From Nitrospira sp. (GTDB taxonomy: Bacteria; Nitrospirota; Nitrospiria; Nitrospirales; Nitrospiraceae): a stretch of 64,000 nucleotides of DNA. The position numbers and the translations under genes are program-made. Within the stretch, counting starts at the first letter, position 1. The number at the start of each line of letters is the position of its first letter. Of the stretch, positions 19,535-47,857 are shown piece by piece. The notes under the pieces were generated by a model. That model saw nothing but the letters and a program-made list of their open reading frames with translations. It ran no database searches and was not told where the DNA came from. The DNA lies in assembly GCA_020846195.1 (NCBI GenBank), contig JADLEJ010000004.1, positions 372,001-436,000 of the forward strand. The letters run 5' to 3'.

Positions 19535-20884
19535 CTAATTCCGCCGGTGTACCTGCACCTTGATTCCATTTTTGGGGCGCAACGTCATTTTTGGATCCGG
19601 CACGATCGCCTGTCCCGGCACTAGGGACACTCGGAACCGCTGGGCGATAGCGGTGAGCGTCAAGATCGCTTCCATCTTGGCAAAATGCTCTCCGATACAG
19701 ACCCGGGCCCCGCCGCCGAACGGGAAATACGCAAACTGCGCCCGCTCTTTCTTAGCCGTTTCGGTGAACCGTTCTGGATTGAACCGCTCAGGGTCAGGGA
19801 AATATCGCGGGGTGCGATGCATGACATACGGGCTCAAATAGATTTTCGCCCCCGCAGGAATGATGGCGCCGCTCGGCAGCTTGTCGCCCTCCAGCGCCAC
19901 CCGAATAAAGATCCAGGTGGGCGGATAGAGGCGAATAGATTCAGCAAGCACCATCCCCGCATAGGTAAGCCGCGGAAGGTCTTCGACTGACGGAAGCCGA
20001 CGCCCAAGCACTTCGTCCACTTCAGATAAGAAGGCGGCTTCAATCTCAGGATGTTGAGACAACAGGTAGGAGGTCCACGTCAACGCCTCTGCAATTGTCT
20101 CATAGCCGGTTATAAACAGTGTCACCGCCTCATCGCGAACCTGCTGATCCGTCATTCCAGTCCCATCATCGTACCGTGCGCGAAGAAGCCGTGAAAGCAA
20201 GTCCTCGCCATCTGCGGAACGCGCGCGACGCGATTGAATCGCCCGGTAGACAATACCGTCGATCCGGCGCATGGCCTTGCGGTAGGCCATGCCGATTCGA
20301 CTCGGCATCCATTGAGGAAACGGCGAAAAAAACACGTGCTCCATGTAGCGGCGCCTGACCGTAATGGCCTCTAGCAACGACGGCATTTCCTGGTCCGCAT
20401 CCGATCCCAACAACGTCTTGACGATATTTTTTTGGGCCAAACCCATCATTTCACGGCCGAGATCGATCTGCATGCCATCCGTCCACCGGTCTAACATGGT
20501 CGCAACGCCGGTTGTGATCGTATGCGAAAAAGACTCCACGGTCTTTCGATAGAACACTGGCTGCATCATTCTTCGCTGCTTGAGATGCGCTGCGCCCACG
20601 CTGGTTAAAAGGCCAGATCCCGACAGCCGCTTCCCACTCACACTGGTCATGCGAGGTGACTTGCCATAGTTGTCCGGGTTCACCACCAAGACATGCTTGA
20701 CGTCTTCTGGATTATTGAGCAAATACGTCGGCTCGCCGATAGTCAGCTTGACCACGTCGCCATACTCGGCAGCGCAACGCGAGAGAAAGCCAAGCTGGTC
20801 GTACAAGAATGCCGGGAGATGCCCCACAAACGGGTAACCAGCCGGCCCCCGAGCCGTCGATTCTGCCTTGTTGCCGCTACTCAT
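19535..20884 (-). CDS. Cytochrome P450
   Basis: ESIRLYPP (ExxR) and FGGGARVCIGEHFAKMEA (FxxGxxxCxG heme loop); start MSSGNKAEST chosen at 20884. Confidence 0.93.
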   Translation of the reverse strand: MSSGNKAESTARGPAGYPFVGHLPAFLYDQLGFLSRCAAEYGDVVKLTIGEPTYLLNNPEDVKHVLVVNPDNYGKSPRMTSVSGKRLSGSGLLTSVGAAHLKQRRMMQPVFYRKTVESFSHTITTGVATMLDRWTDGMQIDLGREMMGLAQKNIVKTLLGSDADQEMPSLLEAITVRRRYMEHVFFSPFPQWMPSRIGMAYRKAMRRIDGIVYRAIQSRRARSADGEDLLSRLLRARYDDGTGMTDQQVRDEAVTLFITGYETIAEALTWTSYLLSQHPEIEAAFLSEVDEVLGRRLPSVEDLPRLTYAGMVLAESIRLYPPTWIFIRVALEGDKLPSGAIIPAGAKIYLSPYVMHRTPRYFPDPERFNPERFTETAKKERAQFAYFPFGGGARVCIGEHFAKMEAILTLTAIAQRFRVSLVPGQAIVPDPKMTLRPKNGIKVQVHRRN

Positions 20885-22118
20885 TTTCAGACAATCCTTC
20901 GCAGGCCACGACCGATGCGCCCTTCTTTTTCTCAATCGCGTCGATGATCCGGAGATAGCCAGCCAGATAGCGTTCTTGGGAATAGAACTTTTCGTACCCG
21001 ACTCGGGCTCGCTGCGCAAGGGTTTCTCGTAAATCGCCGTCCAGGGCCAGCGCAGAGAGCATCCTCCGAAGTTCTTCGCCCGACCGATACACACATCCGC
21101 CACCGGTTTTCTCGACCGCTTCGCAACTCCCGCCGGCGTCGTGGGCCACGACCGGCGTTCCACAAGCCAGCGCTTCAAGCACCGCTAATGGAAACACTTC
21201 CGGCGCCAACGACGGTAAAATCAGCGCCGTTACCCGCTGATACAGCCCAATCAGCTCAGACTGCGGGCGCGCGCCCAAGAAACGAATGTGCGGACGGTCT
21301 CCGTACCGCTCCTCCAACTCAGTCCGCAAGTCTCCCTCACCGACGACATCAAGGTCGAATTCAGGCAAGTGCACAAATTCTTCAAGCAAACGGACGATGC
21401 CCTTGGAGGCAGTTACCCTGCCGACAAATAAAAAGCGCGGACGCTCTCCAGAAGCACGCCAGACCGAGAGGCCCGGCTCAAGACTGGAGAACGTCGGCAG
21501 AACGTCGATCGGCGCAGCCACCCCCGCAGCTCGGTGTCGCTGAGCCGTGAATTCGCTTGGGGCTAAGAGTGCGTCGACATGGGCCATGCTGCGCTGAATC
21601 AAATTCGTATACCGCCATAATTGAGGAGGGACCCCAGACCGAAGACAACAAGTGAAGCACTCCGGGCCATCGCAGGCTTGCGCTCGATCCTTCCAAAAGA
21701 TATGCGTCGGGCAGAGCAACCAGTGCTCGTGCAAGGTATACAACGTCACCGGGGCGCGGCTCAGCCGAAGGGCCCCAGGGCCTCCGATCAAAGAAATGTT
21801 GTGAAAATTGACGACGTCGAAACCACGGTCGAGCACCGCTTGCAATTGTGCCGTTTTCACTCCAGGCTGCCCCGTTTGTTGCGTAATCAACGGAGACAGT
21901 TTGCCAAAGGGGCTGCGCAGGCGATGAACCACCACCCCATCCTGCTCGGCTTGCGCAACCGGCTGCCCTCTGCCTTGCAGGCGGTAGGCATCTTCGCAAT
22001 GCACCACCTCGACATGATGCCCTTTTGCCACCAGCGCACGGGACAATCCCTGCACAAACGTAGCGTCCCCTCCGAAATGATACGGAGGATAAAATGTCGT
22101 CACCATGCAAAATCGCAT
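20877..22118 (-). CDS. Glycosyltransferase family 4
   Basis: FVGRVTASKGIVRLLEEF, PEVFPLAVLEALACGTPVVAHDAGG. Confidence 0.9.
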   Translation of the reverse strand: MRFCMVTTFYPPYHFGGDATFVQGLSRALVAKGHHVEVVHCEDAYRLQGRGQPVAQAEQDGVVVHRLRSPFGKLSPLITQQTGQPGVKTAQLQAVLDRGFDVVNFHNISLIGGPGALRLSRAPVTLYTLHEHWLLCPTHIFWKDRAQACDGPECFTCCLRSGVPPQLWRYTNLIQRSMAHVDALLAPSEFTAQRHRAAGVAAPIDVLPTFSSLEPGLSVWRASGERPRFLFVGRVTASKGIVRLLEEFVHLPEFDLDVVGEGDLRTELEERYGDRPHIRFLGARPQSELIGLYQRVTALILPSLAPEVFPLAVLEALACGTPVVAHDAGGSCEAVEKTGGGCVYRSGEELRRMLSALALDGDLRETLAQRARVGYEKFYSQERYLAGYLRIIDAIEKKKGASVVACEGLSENE

Positions 22119-41272: not shown

Positions 41273-41857
41273 TCAGGCACCGTCTCGAAGCGTCTCTCCT
41301 GCAAAGGCCGCCTGACCGGTTTGCAGCAACGGCATGGCGAGAAGCCCCGCATCGGTCAGGCGGTACCAGCGTCGAAGGCCATCCACCCACAGCATCTGCG
41401 GATGGGACGGCTCGTCGCCAACGAGCGCGGAAAGCCCTCCTTCGTCGCGGAATATCAGCGGGGTCATGGATAAAAACTCCTCCACAACGTCGGAAGCGCG
41501 ATTCCATCGAATGAACAAGTCGTGATAGCTATCGGTCTTCTCGTATAGACAGACGCCCCACTTGCTCTTATATCGCAAGAGGCCGTCCGAGAGCGTCGGA
41601 CGGCTGCCCCGAAAATCCACGACTCGACAACCGCGCTGCTGCGCCCGGCGTCGCAGATCGTCTGCCGTTCGCACGACCAGCAACTCCTGATAGCGAACTT
41701 TCGACAGCGAAAGGTAGAACTCCTGATAGAACGACTCGACGCCCTCATCCCCCAGCGACACCACGGGCTGAAACCTTTGCCGGTGAATTCGCCTCACATC
41801 CCGTTGGATATTGCTGCGGCTCCGCACCAACGCATCGATATTGTCCAGAACCGTCAT
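41273..41857 (-). CDS. Hypothetical protein
   Basis: MTVLDNIDALVRSRSN...; start overlaps the stop of the interrupted upstream ORF (ATGA). Confidence 0.6.
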   Translation of the reverse strand: MTVLDNIDALVRSRSNIQRDVRRIHRQRFQPVVSLGDEGVESFYQEFYLSLSKVRYQELLVVRTADDLRRRAQQRGCRVVDFRGSRPTLSDGLLRYKSKWGVCLYEKTDSYHDLFIRWNRASDVVEEFLSMTPLIFRDEGGLSALVGDEPSHPQMLWVDGLRRWYRLTDAGLLAMPLLQTGQAAFAGETLRDGA

Positions 41858-42111
41858 CCTGGTCCCCACCCATTCGGTACCGCGAGATAGCCCTGGGGGA
41901 ATATCCTCTTCCCTGTATAACGGTCGACGCGAACGATGGTCGCGTCAACCGACGTCTGAAACCGATCCAGAAACTGCGGTAGCGACCGGATCGGCACCAG
42001 TCCAAGCAATTCGCGCTGTGGCTCACCAATAAAGAACCGCTGGGGGATGTACTAGCCCCACGGATCGTCGCCGGCCACAAGAAGCCGGCGGATTTGGCCG
42101 GGTTGTCCCAT
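41854..42111 (-). pseudogene. Short ORF interrupted by in-frame TAG (42052-42054)
   Basis: Hand translation: MGQPGQIRRLLVAGDDPWG*YIPQRFFIGEPQRELLGLVPIRSLPQFLDRFQTSVDATIVRVDRYTGKRIFPQGYLAVPNGWGPG*. Confidence 0.5.
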
Positions 42112-42274: not shown

Positions 42275-43300
42275 TCATCGGCCTGGCTTAGTGCGGCGAG
42301 GAATCGCCGGAGGATTGCCAGGAGAACCAGTCTCTCGTCCCAGCATAGCGAGGCACAGCAGTCCGATTCCGATCCAGACCAGCTCGCGAAAGCGCCGCAG
42401 GAGCGCGAAGGTAATCCCCGTGACATCGGAATAACCGAATGCCTGGAGGAGCAGCAGATTGCCGCCGTCCTGCGCGCCCAGGCTGCCGGGGATAAAAAAC
42501 GTCCCGCCTTTGATGAACACGGACAGCGCCCCGATGGAGATCGCCGACCATATATCGGCCGGGCCGCCGAGATAGTAGATGATGACGAGCACTTCCAGCG
42601 CCTCGGCCAGCCATCCGAGAAAATACAGGCCGGTCGACGCATAGAATGTCGTTCGATGCTGGGTATAGAAATTCAGAATCGTCCGATCCAGCGCGCGCAA
42701 TTTCTCCTCTCGCGCTTCGAGAAACCCGATTCGGAAACCGAGCCGCCTCACGGCTTCCAAGATCCAGGTAAAGAGACCGCGCCGTTGCACAAACACAAAC
42801 GCCATCGTCCCGAACGCCAACAGACCGATGCTCAGCAGCCCCGCCGCCACAACTTGCCCCGACGAGCCCTGCGACCCCAAGAGCCAGAAACCCAGTGCGA
42901 TCCCCAACAGAATGAACAACACTTGTGCAATCGTCATGGTCGTCTTGGCAATAACGACGGAGGCCAGCCCTTCCACCATCGGCACACCAGACTTCTGCAA
43001 CAGATACGCCTTGAGCGGCTCGCCGCCGACATAGGCCGTCGGCGTGGTCATATTCACCACTTCACCAGCGGTGCGCACGGCGAAGACTCGCAGGAACGAG
43101 ACAGATTGCCCGGCCGGACCGAGCGTGATCTTCCAGCCATAGGCTTCAACGGCATACATGAGCAGGGAGGGAATCAGAATCGCGCACAAGGCCAGGGGGC
43201 CGAGCCGGGTCGCCGCTTCATAGATATTCCCGGGACCGATGTGCCAGACAATGAGACTGAGCGTGAGACAACCGACGAGGAGTAGAACGAGCCTAAGCAC
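42275..43300 (-). CDS. Lysylphosphatidylglycerol synthase TM-region / flippase-like membrane protein
   Basis: Polytopic; VRTAGEVVNMTTPTAYVGGEPLKAYLLQKSGVP; FFIPGSLGAQDGGNLLLL. Confidence 0.8.
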   Translation of the reverse strand: MLRLVLLLVGCLTLSLIVWHIGPGNIYEAATRLGPLALCAILIPSLLMYAVEAYGWKITLGPAGQSVSFLRVFAVRTAGEVVNMTTPTAYVGGEPLKAYLLQKSGVPMVEGLASVVIAKTTMTIAQVLFILLGIALGFWLLGSQGSSGQVVAAGLLSIGLLAFGTMAFVFVQRRGLFTWILEAVRRLGFRIGFLEAREEKLRALDRTILNFYTQHRTTFYASTGLYFLGWLAEALEVLVIIYYLGGPADIWSAISIGALSVFIKGGTFFIPGSLGAQDGGNLLLLQAFGYSDVTGITFALLRRFRELVWIGIGLLCLAMLGRETGSPGNPPAIPRRTKPGR

Positions 43301-44714
43301 GAGAGGTCGCTGACGAACGGGTCACCCACACCATCAAGATCGCAAACACCAGCGAGCCTGCAGACGCCATCCAAAGAAACCAGTCCAGCTTGCCTAATAC
43401 CGCCGCGATGAGCACGATGACGGAAAAGTCGCGGCTGGCCACATTCTTCAGCATGAATTCCGACCAGGCCGCGTGCACCGAGGTTCTCCACCGGCTCGCC
43501 GATTTGATCTTCTGCGCCCTGGTGACCAATGCGAAAGACAACGCATTGCCGAGTACGGCCACCGCGCCCAGCACGAGAAACGTCTCGGCATCGTCCGGCC
43601 CAGCCTGCCGATACAGCCCGACGGCAATGCCGGCGAAGATGGCCATATGCACCACATTATCCATCGCGATGTCGAGCCAGGCGCCGAAGGGAGACTCGGT
43701 GAAGGTGAGCCGGGCGACTTCGCCATCACAACAGTCGATGACCGCGGCACACTGAAACAACAGCGCCGCCACCACGGCAGACGGATAGGTCCCGAGGCCA
43801 AACCCCACGGCAGCCAGGAGTCCCACGAATGTCGCCACCATGGTAATGACGTTAGGCGAAGCGCCAACGGCCAGGAAGATCCGGGTCAGCCAGCGAGAGA
43901 CTTTGCGATTGAAGTACCGGTCGACAAAACCCTCGAACTCGCCCTTGAGCGACGAGAAGAGCTTCCGCTCCGCCACGAGGACATCAGCCTGCGTTCGCAC
44001 ATCTTGATACCACTGGGAAGAATGCCCGTCGGTCCGCATGACCCGCACCCGCCCATCGATCGCCGCCCGCTCGATCCATCGGCGAATCGGCACAGATCCT
44101 GGAGGAGTCTGGATGTCTTGCGCCGCCGCCATGAGGCCCGCCGGGAGCACTAACAGATCCGCCGCTACCAGCGTCGCCTCGTCGGTCCGGGACGATCCGA
44201 GGGCCACCAGCCGCTCGGCCTGCACTTTCACCGAAACCCACCGATCGCCTGCTCCGCGTTGAGCCGCGGGTTGCGCCACGAGAATAGCCTGCCCTTCCTG
44301 CACTTCCCGGCGCAGGCTTTCGATCAGGCCGCGGGAGAAAACACCCCGCACGCTCGCGACCAAGCAAAACCCCGGCACTTCCGCCGCCATCGCTTCCCAG
44401 GTGCGTGGATCGTCGAGCGGAAACTCCCGGATCGGCATCCAACGGACCGGGATCGTGACGCGCGGGCCACGGCTCAACGCCTGCTTGAGCTGATCTTCTT
44501 CAGGGCCGGCCAGCACAATCAGCTGCCTGATCCCAGCGCGTTGCAGCGTCAGGACGGCGCGCTGAAACAGTCCGATCCCCACTACCTGCGTCAGCGGACC
44601 GGCGCTGCCCGGCACTCGCTCAAGAGATTCGCCGAACACACTGACCGACGGCAGCAGAATGGCTGTCGCCAGGCCCTGCACGTCCGCGCGATGCTGGAGG
44701 AGGCTTTCACTCAT
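43293..44714 (-). CDS. CDP-alcohol phosphatidyltransferase with N-terminal nucleotidyltransferase-like domain
   Basis: DCCDGEVARLTFTESPFGAWLDIAMD matches D(x2)DG(x2)AR(x8)G(x3)D(x3)D exactly; N-terminal Rossmann-like region lacks GxGxR. Confidence 0.9.
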   Translation of the reverse strand: MSESLLQHRADVQGLATAILLPSVSVFGESLERVPGSAGPLTQVVGIGLFQRAVLTLQRAGIRQLIVLAGPEEDQLKQALSRGPRVTIPVRWMPIREFPLDDPRTWEAMAAEVPGFCLVASVRGVFSRGLIESLRREVQEGQAILVAQPAAQRGAGDRWVSVKVQAERLVALGSSRTDEATLVAADLLVLPAGLMAAAQDIQTPPGSVPIRRWIERAAIDGRVRVMRTDGHSSQWYQDVRTQADVLVAERKLFSSLKGEFEGFVDRYFNRKVSRWLTRIFLAVGASPNVITMVATFVGLLAAVGFGLGTYPSAVVAALLFQCAAVIDCCDGEVARLTFTESPFGAWLDIAMDNVVHMAIFAGIAVGLYRQAGPDDAETFLVLGAVAVLGNALSFALVTRAQKIKSASRWRTSVHAAWSEFMLKNVASRDFSVIVLIAAVLGKLDWFLWMASAGSLVFAILMVWVTRSSATSRA

Positions 44715-44780
44715 GAGACCACTCGCTGCTCGTTATTGCGCTTGTGCGCGACTGATGGGCCGTGAGCCCCACGTTGCCGG

Positions 44781-45500
44781 CTAGAGCCTTGGCAGGATCT
44801 CGCGCTCGGCCTTCGCCACATCTTCCGGGAAATCGATCTCGGTCCAAGGCAATCCACCGATCTTTTCATGGCCGACTTTCACGTCGCGGAAAAAATCGAT
44901 CAGGGCGTCTTCGTACTCCATCTGCCAGGCTTCCCGATCCACAAACTTCCGGAGCGACGCAACGACATGCGGCGAGTCGGCATGCCGCACCCTGAGAAAC
45001 CCCACACCCTCCCCCGCATATTCATAGCGCGGCGGCATGGTTTTCGTCAGCGCGATCACTCGCCCGCCCTCGACCACGACCATGCATTCTTCACCAGTCT
45101 GCTTCACGGAGTCATCCATCAACAGCGCATTCTCGAAGGGCGACTGCACCAGCCTCTGCAGAATGTCACGATGAAACAGCACGTCTGCATCCATCACAAT
45201 CGTATCGTCGGTGAACGCCGTCCTGGCAATCCACAAAGACGAGATGCTCCCGCGATGAAACTGCTCGTTCACCAGAAAATTGACCCGAACGCCGCAGGAG
45301 TCGGATTCGACGGCGGCGCGAATCATCTCCTGCTTATAGCCCACCACGATGTCGGCCTGACGAATCCCCACGCTTGCCAGCAGCGTCAAATACCGATGCA
45401 GCAGCGTCTGTCCGCCAATCTTGATGAGGCACTTCGGATGATGCTGCGTGACAGGCCACAGACGTTTGCCGACCCCGGCGGCCAGAATGATTGCCTTCAT
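44781..45500 (-). CDS. Nucleotidyltransferase; candidate AEP cytidylyltransferase (PntC-like)
   Basis: MKAIILAAGVGKRLWPVTQHHPKCLIKIGGQTLLHRYL; ATGA overlap with upstream transaminase stop. Confidence 0.85.
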   Translation of the reverse strand: MKAIILAAGVGKRLWPVTQHHPKCLIKIGGQTLLHRYLTLLASVGIRQADIVVGYKQEMIRAAVESDSCGVRVNFLVNEQFHRGSISSLWIARTAFTDDTIVMDADVLFHRDILQRLVQSPFENALLMDDSVKQTGEECMVVVEGGRVIALTKTMPPRYEYAGEGVGFLRVRHADSPHVVASLRKFVDREAWQMEYEDALIDFFRDVKVGHEKIGGLPWTEIDFPEDVAKAEREILPRL

Positions 45501-46603
45501 GCCGGTTTGCACGCCTGCTCGAACGCATCGAGAAATCCCGTCAGCTGCGCTTCGGTCAAGGCGCCCATATTGGCCACGCGGAAAACCTTGCTTTCCAGCT
45601 GGCCCTGCCCCGCGTAGATGACATAGCCTTGTTTCTTGAGACGATCATGCAGCTGGTCGTACGTCACGCCGTCGGGAAGCGAATAGGCGGTAATGGTGTT
45701 CGACTGGCGCTCCGGCGTCAGCAGCGGCTTGATCCCGAGCTTCGCCATGCGCGCGCGAATCAGCGTCGCAGCCTTTTTATAGCGCTGGATGCGGTTGGCC
45801 ACGCCTTCTTCCAGTAATTCGCTCAAGGCCTCGTCGAATCCATAAAACGCCTGGACCGCCGGCGTAAATGGAATGGTGCCGCGGCCGTGATCGTCCACAT
45901 AGTGCGTCAGATGGAGATACCACGACCGTTTGGGATATTGACGCATCCGCTCTAGAAACCCTTTTCGCACCAGCACGAACGAGACGCCGGGAAATCCCTG
46001 GATGCATTTGCCGGCGGTGCCTGCCGCCATATAGATATGCGACCCACCCACGTCGATCGTCTCTCCGCCCAACCCGCTGACCGAATCGAGAATGAACGCG
46101 CGGTTCTGACTATCGACGACTTCGGCAATCTCTTTTACTGGATTGATGAGGCCGGTGGTGGTTTCATGATGGACCATCGCCACGGCATGCACTTCAGGAT
46201 GCTGCCGGAGCGCCAGCCGGAGGCGCTCAGGATCAGGCCTGACGGTCCACTCGTACTTCAGCTCGGACACGCCCAGCCGGTGCAACCCCACCATCTGGGA
46301 CAGGCGCTCGCCGTATACGCCGTTATTCAGCACCAGCACCCGCTTCCCGTGCGGGATGGCGGACATCAGCGCCGATTCGACGGCGGCGGTGCCGGAGCCG
46401 GTGATGAGCACAGCAGCATAGTCGGCTTCCGCGCCCGGCGCGAAGGCCTTCAGTAACTTGTCTTGGATCCGGAGCTGCAACTCGGTGAACTCCGACTCCC
46501 GATGGCAGATATCCGGCCGCAATAAGGCCTGCCGGACACGCTCGGATACATTGACGGGGCCTGGATTCAATAAAATCACGTCTTCCCCTTCCCTATCCTT
46601 CAA
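45497..46603 (-). CDS. 2-aminoethylphosphonate-type transaminase (PhnW-like, PLP class V)
   Basis: LLNPGPVNVSERVRQALLRPDICHRESEF; ITGSGTAAVESAL; AGKCIQGFPGVSFVLVRK (PLP Lys region). Confidence 0.87.
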   Translation of the reverse strand: MKDREGEDVILLNPGPVNVSERVRQALLRPDICHRESEFTELQLRIQDKLLKAFAPGAEADYAAVLITGSGTAAVESALMSAIPHGKRVLVLNNGVYGERLSQMVGLHRLGVSELKYEWTVRPDPERLRLALRQHPEVHAVAMVHHETTTGLINPVKEIAEVVDSQNRAFILDSVSGLGGETIDVGGSHIYMAAGTAGKCIQGFPGVSFVLVRKGFLERMRQYPKRSWYLHLTHYVDDHGRGTIPFTPAVQAFYGFDEALSELLEEGVANRIQRYKKAATLIRARMAKLGIKPLLTPERQSNTITAYSLPDGVTYDQLHDRLKKQGYVIYAGQGQLESKVFRVANMGALTEAQLTGFLDAFEQACKPA

Positions 46604-47174
46604 TCGCTTTCATGAACCGCTTCGTAATGTCCGGCGGCTCATGAAGCACCCGCCCGGCATCTTCGGCAAACTCATTGACCTTGATCAGCAGCATGCTCGG
46701 CCCGTCTTTCTTCAGCATGTCTTTGAATTCGTACACGAGATCCTCGCGGTCGAGCACCCGCTCCACATTCACATAACCGGCCGCCTTGGCCACCTTCTCC
46801 AGCGGTACCACATTCGAAATAGTCGGCTGGTTGCCGGTGGTGCCGTACACTTCGTTATCGAACACCACATGAATGAAATTTTTCGGCTTCAACGCGCCGA
46901 CCGTCGCAAGCGTGCCCATTCCCATCAGCACATTGCCATCGCCATCGAAGGTGATGACCTGCTTGTTCGGCTTGGCCAGCGCCACGCCCAGCGCGATGGC
47001 CGGAGCATTTCCCATGGAGCCGATCATGTAGAAATGAGTGGGCCGGTCGGCAATCTTGTGCGCTTCGCGCGACGGAAAGCCGTTACAGATAATCACCGGT
47101 TGATCCGTCAGCAATTCCAGCAGGGCGGCCAAAGCCTGCGCCCGGCTAATCAGCGTTCCTTCTTCAGGCCTCAT
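46593..47174 (-). CDS. Phosphonopyruvate/sulfopyruvate decarboxylase, C-terminal (TPP-binding, beta) subunit
   Basis: GFPSREAHKIADRPTHFYMIGSMGNAPAIALGVAL; GDGNVLMGMGTLATVGALKPKNFIHVVFDN TPP motif; start ATG 47174. Confidence 0.87.
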   Translation of the reverse strand: MRPEEGTLISRAQALAALLELLTDQPVIICNGFPSREAHKIADRPTHFYMIGSMGNAPAIALGVALAKPNKQVITFDGDGNVLMGMGTLATVGALKPKNFIHVVFDNEVYGTTGNQPTISNVVPLEKVAKAAGYVNVERVLDREDLVYEFKDMLKKDGPSMLLIKVNEFAEDAGRVLHEPPDITKRFMKAIEG

Positions 47175-47668
47175 GGATGCAACCCTTTCACGACGCCCTT
47201 CGTAATCACCAGCGCCACGGGAATGCGCTGCTTCATAAAAGTCTCGGCGACCCACTTAAAATCTTCGACGGCGGTGCTCTCCGTCAGAGTCCGGTGCGGA
47301 ATCTTCATGGTATCGAGGAAATGCGGCATGACTTCGCCCATCACCAAATGCTCGGGAGCATCCTTGCCGCCTTGGCCCCGCCAAGAGACGATCAAAATAC
47401 AGGGCTGCCGGTAGATCATATTTAACGAGATCAGCGTATTGAGCGAGGTGCCGAGCCCGGAGTTCTGCATCAAGACGGCGGGAATTTTGCCGGCCATATA
47501 CGCGCCGGCGGCCATCCCCACCGCTTCGTCTTCCCGCACGGCCGGCGTATAGATCCGCCGCACCATCAATTCAGCAATAATGCCGCCCAGAATCGAGTCG
47601 GGGACCCCGGTAAAAAAGTCGACCCCCATATCCTGAAGCGCCTGAACGAACGCATCGCTTTCAATCAT
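47171..47668 (-). CDS. Phosphonopyruvate/sulfopyruvate decarboxylase, N-terminal (alpha) subunit
   Basis: MIESDAFVQALQDMGVDFFTGVPDSILGGIIAEL...REDEAVGMAAGAYMAGKIPAVLMQNSGLGTSLNTLISL; TGA/ATG overlap with beta. Confidence 0.87.
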   Translation of the reverse strand: MIESDAFVQALQDMGVDFFTGVPDSILGGIIAELMVRRIYTPAVREDEAVGMAAGAYMAGKIPAVLMQNSGLGTSLNTLISLNMIYRQPCILIVSWRGQGGKDAPEHLVMGEVMPHFLDTMKIPHRTLTESTAVEDFKWVAETFMKQRIPVALVITKGVVKGLHP

Positions 47669-47857
47669 CTCGCTCCCGATCGTTGTTCGATGTCGATATG
47701 CGGGACTAGCATCGACACAGCCCAGTCCCAAATCCCGCGCATTATAAGACAGGGCTGCACGCATTCTCAACAAACCGTCCGGTTGCGCCGGTCTCAGCAC
47801 CATGGTAGCGTGGGGAGCGGGCATCGAGAGATTGCTCTTTGGATACGGCGCGCGACC

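Follow-up and report, generated by a model that had tools for sequence, protein, structure and literature searches.

A gene cluster of Nostoc (lichen cyanobionts) and Burkholderia has been described as directing phosphonolipid synthesis (PMC5987646, Fig. 7), and in pathways of this kind the attachment step has been counted among the enigmatic ones (PMC6697681). We analyzed 64,000 nucleotides of a Nitrospira sp. genome (assembly GCA_020846195.1, contig JADLEJ010000004.1, positions 372,001 to 436,000 of the forward strand; hereafter the window), whose minus strand carries an operon of six open reading frames (ORFs) encoding, in order, the two subunits of a phosphonopyruvate decarboxylase (PpdA and PpdB), a PhnW-like transaminase, a nucleotidyltransferase (NTase), a CDP-alcohol phosphotransferase and a flippase-like membrane protein, each matching its expected family. 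The published cluster figure is reportedly adapted from Yu et al. 2013, cited there for the phosphonolipid cluster. Judged from its sequence, the Nitrospira operon quite probably represents the part of a phosphonolipid-type pathway that makes and attaches 2-aminoethylphosphonate (AEP). Its features are as follows.

47171..47668, minus strand: PpdA, N-terminal (alpha) subunit of phosphonopyruvate decarboxylase, 165 amino acids (TIGR03297, 132 bits; a conserved neighbour in relatives)
46593..47174, minus strand: PpdB, C-terminal (beta) subunit of the same enzyme, binding thiamine pyrophosphate, 193 amino acids (profile matches; ATGA overlap with PpdA)
45497..46579, minus strand: PhnW/AepZ-like AEP transaminase, with an open frame reaching TTG 46603 (TIGR03301, 349 bits)
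44781..45500, minus strand: PntC-like cytidylyltransferase, predicted to convert AEP to CMP-AEP (NTP_transferase; best solved relative 6pd1; ATGA overlap with the transaminase gene)
43293..44714, minus strand: CDP-alcohol phosphotransferase with a degenerate N-terminal NTase domain, 473 amino acids (CDP-OH_P_transf; AlphaFold and Foldseek)
43950..44714, minus strand: the degenerate (pseudo)NTase domain, about residues 1-255 of the phosphotransferase (matches NTase folds; PntC catalytic residues replaced)
43659..43736, minus strand: catalytic motif D327xxDGxxARx8GxxxDxxxD352 of the phosphotransferase (unchanged in every aligned orthologue)
42275..43300, minus strand: flippase-like membrane protein of the LPG_synthase_TM/HpnL-related group, 341 amino acids (PF03706, 112 bits; HpnL TIGR03476)
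47741..47770, minus strand: sigma-70-like promoter match, TTGAGA-18 nt-TATAAT (11 of 12 positions; 72 nt upstream of the first start codon)

In the pathway that we propose, a fusion of phosphoenolpyruvate mutase (PepM) with an NTase domain, encoded elsewhere in the genome, would convert phosphoenolpyruvate to phosphonopyruvate; PpdA/PpdB would decarboxylate this to phosphonoacetaldehyde; the PhnW-like enzyme would aminate the aldehyde to AEP; and the PntC-like enzyme would join AEP with cytidine triphosphate (CTP) to form cytidine monophosphate-activated AEP (CMP-AEP). In a fifth step, the membrane CDP-alcohol phosphotransferase would transfer the phosphonate of CMP-AEP onto a hydroxyl group carried by a membrane acceptor, with diacylglycerol the most likely and a hopanoid polyol the main alternative, and in a sixth the HpnL-related protein would carry the product across the membrane. 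The first four steps draw on specific homology, conserved catalytic residues and co-conservation, and the fifth on homology and gene fusion; its acceptor, and the sixth step, we infer. An earlier note on this DNA had proposed that the operon makes AEP, activates it with CMP and transfers it through the CDP-alcohol phosphotransferase, and this core is now supported by the PepM of the genome, the PntC-like NTase, four NTase-phosphotransferase fusions and co-conservation, whereas its sulfonolipid alternative and its argument from a neighbouring glycan cluster fared poorly, as described below.

The operon contains no PepM gene; on contig C30 the same genome encodes one PepM-NTase fusion of 544 amino acids (L009:3894-5528). 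This protein carries the canonical EDKX5NS motif as EDKLFPKTNS, scores 425 bits against Mytilus PepM (1m1b) and reaches 383 bits on the NCBI PEP_mutase model (TIGR02320), above the cut-off of 320. In many Nitrospira genomes, including that of N. moscoviensis (L121), a PepM-NTase gene lies beside the operon, which supports its linkage to the pathway. The decarboxylase subunits match TPP_enzyme_N and TPP_enzyme_C, and their best NCBIfam models are those for phosphonopyruvate decarboxylase (Ppyr-DeCO2ase, TIGR03297) and sulfopyruvate decarboxylase (TIGR03845/TIGR03846), all below cut-off. The transaminase scores below the cut-off of 361 bits on the PhnW-AepZ model. Decarboxylase and AEP transaminase are thus encoded side by side, with TIGR03297 and TIGR03301 among the best models although the strict cut-offs are not reached. 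About 3 kb from the PepM gene, at L009:23-642, lies an array resembling clustered regularly interspaced short palindromic repeats (CRISPR), in which a repeat of about 36 nt (GTAGCGCCCGTCCTTCGGGGCGGGCGAGGATTGAAAC) occurs nine times at a spacing of 70-72 nt.

The system includes three NTase-like domains. The best solved match of the NTase encoded in the operon is Treponema denticola PntC (6pd1), and all 24 aligned sequences carry the GxGxRx4-8PK signature and keep the equivalents of R15, K25, D106, K153, E194 and E196 (Tde numbering). R15, K25 and K153 are required for full PntC activity, while E196 faces the AEP amine and is Asp in LicC (PMC6697681). The NTase domains fused to PepM retain K25 and D106 and have lost R15, K153 and E196, and the N-terminal NTase domain of the phosphotransferase keeps none of the PntC catalytic residues. 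Conservation of these residues in the operon NTase, and their loss in the other two domains, suggest that the operon NTase is the likely CMP-AEP maker; the PepM-fused domain was also considered for this role, but with R15, K153 and E196 replaced it is probably not the principal one.

Evidence for the attachment step comes from the phosphotransferase itself and from gene fusions. The motif DxxDGxxARx8GxxxDxxxD is intact and invariant in an 18-row alignment (A1), and the AlphaFold model (mean predicted local distance difference test score, pLDDT, 82) has a helical C-terminal half. Structure prediction, which the earlier note had proposed and which was run for this protein, bore out the CDP-alcohol phosphotransferase fold, with IPCT-DIPPS (4mnd; E 1.7e-18) and AF2299 as the top Foldseek matches. 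Membership in the IPCT-DIPPS family itself is not indicated: the score on NF041135 is 107 bits against a cut-off of 580, and the N-terminal catalytic residues are missing. The degenerate NTase domain seems dispensable, since it was not matched in the phosphotransferases of G025, G028 and L079. In L079 (G038, of the same order) and in the more distant contigs L144, L167 and L173, an intact-looking NTase and the phosphotransferase form a single ORF, tying the activation and transfer steps together. A search of plasmids with the phosphotransferase yielded weak matches only.

The arrangement of the six genes is not a chance one, as all of them occur in the same order in 21 of the 24 loci of the order Nitrospirales that we inspected around the phosphotransferase gene. 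The three exceptions are G033, where only the NTase gene is missing from the operon and instead adjoins PepM elsewhere (L073); G025, which lacks the flippase gene; and G027, with only the last two genes in the inspected stretch. In our sample of the phylum, 35 of the 37 Nitrospirales genomes encoded the phosphotransferase, and outside the order only phosphotransferase-like proteins at 26-28% identity were seen; the complete genome of N. moscoviensis carries the same operon. Co-occurrence of the phosphotransferase with the decarboxylase and transaminase genes, which the earlier note had offered as a check, is thus well supported by these counts and by the linkage to PepM. Two genomes rated 100% complete, G098 and G174, have neither the phosphotransferase nor PepM-NTase, and their locus is without NTase and flippase genes, while PpdA-PpdB-PhnW are retained in place at 64-72% identity (L176:8900-11259 and L177:8057-10379, respectively). 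The joint absence of PepM, NTase, phosphotransferase and flippase supports the view that these form one functional module. A second, fragmented PhnW-NTase-phosphotransferase-flippase copy was observed in L052 (G012:C1, ~1224-1229 kb), about 15 kb from an intact operon.

Two alternatives concern the head group. The operon could make a sulfonate (taurine-type or sulfonolipid) from sulfopyruvate, as the earlier note had allowed; PpdB does score slightly higher on the sulfopyruvate model (186 vs 174 bits for the phosphonopyruvate model), and G098 and G174 retain the decarboxylase and transaminase without any PepM. However, PpdA scores higher as a phosphonopyruvate decarboxylase (132 vs 113 bits), the transaminase reaches 349 bits on the AEP transaminase model, and among the genomes examined PepM-NTase goes with the operon and is missing from those without the attachment genes. 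Neither sulfopyruvate decarboxylase cut-off is reached (113 vs 148 bits for TIGR03845, 186 vs 221.5 for TIGR03846), and we know of no precedent for CMP activation of a sulfonate, which also counts against this explanation. As the main explanation it was dropped once PepM was found in the genome: given a canonical PepM in the same genome and a gene set that tracks PepM, the product is very probably AEP, and the matter is settled in favour of phosphonate as far as sequence allows, leaving a sulfonate extremely unlikely. It is also very unlikely that the NTase and phosphotransferase act on some other phosphate, such as inositol-1-phosphate or phosphocholine, and merely share an operon with the AEP genes. 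The resemblance of the phosphotransferase to IPCT-DIPPS would fit this idea, as would the match of the NTase to LicC (1jyk); but PntC is the best solved match, the E196 equivalent is Glu in all 24 sequences, even though the E104 position holds the Asp of LicC, and the NTase gene directly follows that for the AEP transaminase, the two being one protein in T. denticola.

The acceptor is less firmly indicated. Diacylglycerol is the simplest candidate by analogy with ethanolamine phosphotransferases, and we consider it the most likely, which would give a carbon-phosphorus (C-P) analogue of phosphatidylethanolamine that the last protein of the operon presumably moves across the membrane. The idea that such a product replaces phosphatidylethanolamine found no support: 19 of 20 genomes, this one among them, encode phosphatidylserine decarboxylase, indicating that ordinary phosphatidylethanolamine is probably also made and that the AEP product would be additional. 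The main rival, which we think unlikely, is that CMP-AEP is used on a bacteriohopanepolyol hydroxyl and the HpnL-related protein moves an AEP-hopanoid. The last gene of the operon is indeed closest to HpnL, although at 154.8 bits here and 174.9 in L144, against a TIGR03476 cut-off of 195.65, it is HpnL-related only. In L144 the gene after the flippase encodes HpnA, and in L173 the AEP gene group itself includes HpnA and an HpnG-like gene; farnesyl diphosphate (FPP) synthase and HpnA occur near PepM-NTase in five Nitrospirota loci (L080, L130, L133, L151, L184) and adjacent to each other in the present genome, about 25 kb from the operon (L011:7496-9499; G000:C4, ~443.5-445.5 kb). A Roseomonas plasmid (L083) carries the full set next to shc, hpnG, hpnH and ispH, a gene set for which a terpene-phosphonate has already been suggested (PMC8776678), and all genomes of the order that bear the operon and were tested encode squalene-hopene cyclase. 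On the other hand, hopanoid genes do not adjoin the operon in the Nitrospira loci inspected, none of those looked for turned up near the Burkholderia or Cupriavidus sets, and G098 and G174 lost the attachment genes yet retain squalene-hopene cyclase; a shared neighbourhood may also reflect co-regulated membrane lipids. Decidedly unlikely, in our estimation, is a phosphonoglycan or phosphonylated polyprenyl-linked sugar, in which AEP would decorate a polysaccharide of the neighbouring glycan cluster instead of a lipid. A large glycosyltransferase cluster does lie in the window (~18.5-41 kb), and AEP decoration of surface glycans has been proposed for PntC pathways (PMC6697681). Nevertheless, the transferase belongs to the integral membrane CDP-alcohol phosphotransferases and not to the LicD type, and the last gene belongs to the HpnL/LPG_synthase_TM group and not to Wzx. 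The earlier note had argued from the location beside these glycan genes, and this argument proved weak, as the glycosyltransferase and amine-oxidase neighbours are kept only in the closest relative (G022) among the inspected loci.

Several points weigh against a phosphonolipid-type pathway. PhnW-like enzymes also work in the catabolic direction, and the PpdA-PpdB-PhnW genes of G098 and G174 may have a PepM-independent role or may be relics. IPCT-DIPPS (4mnd), which we take to use a soluble inositol-phosphate acceptor, indicates that the acceptor of the phosphotransferase need not be a lipid. The literature searched yielded no chemical evidence for C-P lipids in Nitrospira.

Comparison of the PepM proteins that accompany the operon revealed two types. 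Type A, the form in this genome, carries EDKxFPKTNS; in every case where it and the operon were both seen, the two were unlinked. Type B, also fused to an NTase domain, is about 34% identical to type A, has EDNVYPKRCS, and in Nitrospira usually lies beside the operon in divergent orientation, as in N. moscoviensis (L121:8501-10159). Across the type B fusions in L096-L175, EDNxxPKRCS replaces EDKX5NS (with variants in L154, L157 and L173), and many of these loci hold AEP operon genes beside the fusion. No tested Nitrospirales genome has intact copies of both types, and G007, which encodes type A elsewhere, has beside its operon the remains of a type B gene, interrupted by an in-frame TAG (L054:13958-14367), a case of gene replacement. 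This mutual replacement suggests that the two types do the same job. In a GTDB scan, type B was found directly upstream of PpdA-PpdB, often with PhnW-NTase, in loci titled as several other phyla, although the titles of metagenome-assembled genomes can be wrong (one was titled Klebsiella). PpdA lies near type B in 18 of 37 non-Nitrospirota loci; all seven functions run in one direction in L144, and in L161 the type B gene group also reaches the phosphotransferase and flippase genes. Two Binatia chromosomes have relatives of the decarboxylase and phosphotransferase, unlinked. Directly after the type A PepM-NTase gene in two genomes lies a second, diverged decarboxylase pair, 36-39% identical to PpdA/PpdB (L065:11337-12458 in G006 and L068:10795-11907 in G030).

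Type B retains D58, D85, D87, E114, K120, S123, R159 and H190 of Mytilus PepM; N replaces K116 (A in L173) and C replaces N122. Because N122 matters in PepM, a loss or change of activity is possible. Among solved structures, type B matches S. platensis PepM best (290 bits), followed by phosphonopyruvate hydrolase (244), Mytilus PepM (213) and lyases (at most 142); PEP_mutase is its best model, yet at 275 bits it stays below the cut-off of 320. In a phylogenetic tree, type B is sister to canonical PepM plus phosphonopyruvate hydrolase (support 1.0 for the latter clade and 0.74 for type B). Leaving aside two Minicystis proteins, among them the poorly aligning L186, the other readable PF13714 proteins of type B genomes have lyase-type loops (EDQ...KCG). 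The AlphaFold model of the type B fusion (mean pLDDT 53) was too poor to use. Two surveys of phosphonate producers both require EDKX5NS (PMC6697681, PMC8931226), and such a filter would reject type B. On balance, we favour the view that type B is a second, working PepM lineage that opens the same AEP operon in many Nitrospira and in other phyla and is rejected by the motif filter.

The earlier note had listed the six genes in this order, and family profile matches bear it out, as inspection of the sequence does the two ATGA overlaps (47171-47174 between PpdA and PpdB, 45497-45500 between the transaminase and NTase genes). Its other junctions need some revision. The 8-nt overlap of the phosphotransferase and flippase-like genes (43293-43300) holds provided that the last gene starts at GTG 43300; the spacer between the NTase and phosphotransferase genes, given as 67 nt, is 66 nt (44715-44780); and the 11-nt overlap at 46593-46603 presupposes that the transaminase starts at TTG 46603. 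A start at GTG 46579 would instead leave a 13-nt gap, and is likelier in view of an AG-rich Shine-Dalgarno-like stretch and of the match to the start of a homologue (MILLSPGPVNVS). The sigma-70-like promoter match is the only one in the region, where 2.7 would be expected by chance, and is therefore no more than chance would give. Elsewhere in the window, a cytochrome P450 (PF00067, 260 bits) is encoded at 19535-21178 inside the glycosyltransferase/polysaccharide cluster, and an ORF without family matches (41273-41869) is 84-86% identical, in pieces, to sequence in the close relative G022, where part of it recurs as a second, diverged copy (L042).

The gene set itself is already known, the same functions having been described in Nostoc and Burkholderia. 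As far as we have seen, what is new is that Nitrospirales carry it almost without exception, that its NTase and phosphotransferase can be fused, and that there is a non-canonical PepM clade, although some of this may already stand in a closed or subscription paper. The literature searched gave no account of AEP or phosphonate biosynthesis in Nitrospira beyond co-mentions in passing. If our interpretation is right, Nitrospira nitrifiers near-universally carry genes for making AEP and attaching it to the membrane or surface, and would supply reduced phosphorus to soil, freshwater and treatment plants. The NTase-phosphotransferase fusions offer a concrete two-enzyme test of the attachment step. 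Should type B be a working PepM, surveys filtered by EDKX5NS would miss phosphonate producers in several phyla, and bacterial phosphonate production would be undercounted.

Compared with the Nostoc/Burkholderia cluster, the Nitrospira genome has the same pepM, ppd, AEP transaminase, NTP transferase, CDP-alcohol phosphatidyltransferase and hpnL-like membrane protein functions, all present though with pepM unlinked; a Burkholderia stagnalis locus encodes this set together. Unlike the published clusters, the Nitrospira operon has no 2-oxoglutarate oxygenase; its Ppd is split in two subunits, and its phosphotransferase bears the extra degenerate NTase domain. Plasmid p1318-3 of Roseomonas marmotae likewise holds a PepM fusion, Ppd, AEP transaminase, PntC-like protein, CDP-alcohol phosphotransferase and LPG-synthase-domain protein within 7 kb, but these stand beside the hopanoid genes listed above and the phosphotransferase is short, without an NTase domain. 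The PepM of the Nitrospira genome is a PepM-NTase fusion of the described kind, in which Ppm is fused to PF12804 (PMC6697681), with its NTase domain lacking R15, K153 and E196. The operon NTase is closest to T. denticola PntC (Tde1415; PDB 6PD1/6PD2), with R15, K25, K153 and the amine-facing E196 kept, and differs in being a stand-alone gene where the T. denticola protein is fused to the AEP transaminase (PMC6697681), and in the LicC-like Asp at E104. IPCT-DIPPS (4mnd) and AF2299 (4o6m) share with the phosphotransferase the two-domain architecture of NTase and CDP-alcohol phosphotransferase and the same catalytic motif, at about 20% identity; in Nitrospira, by contrast, the N-terminal NTase lacks its catalytic residues and the active-looking NTase is encoded by the preceding gene.

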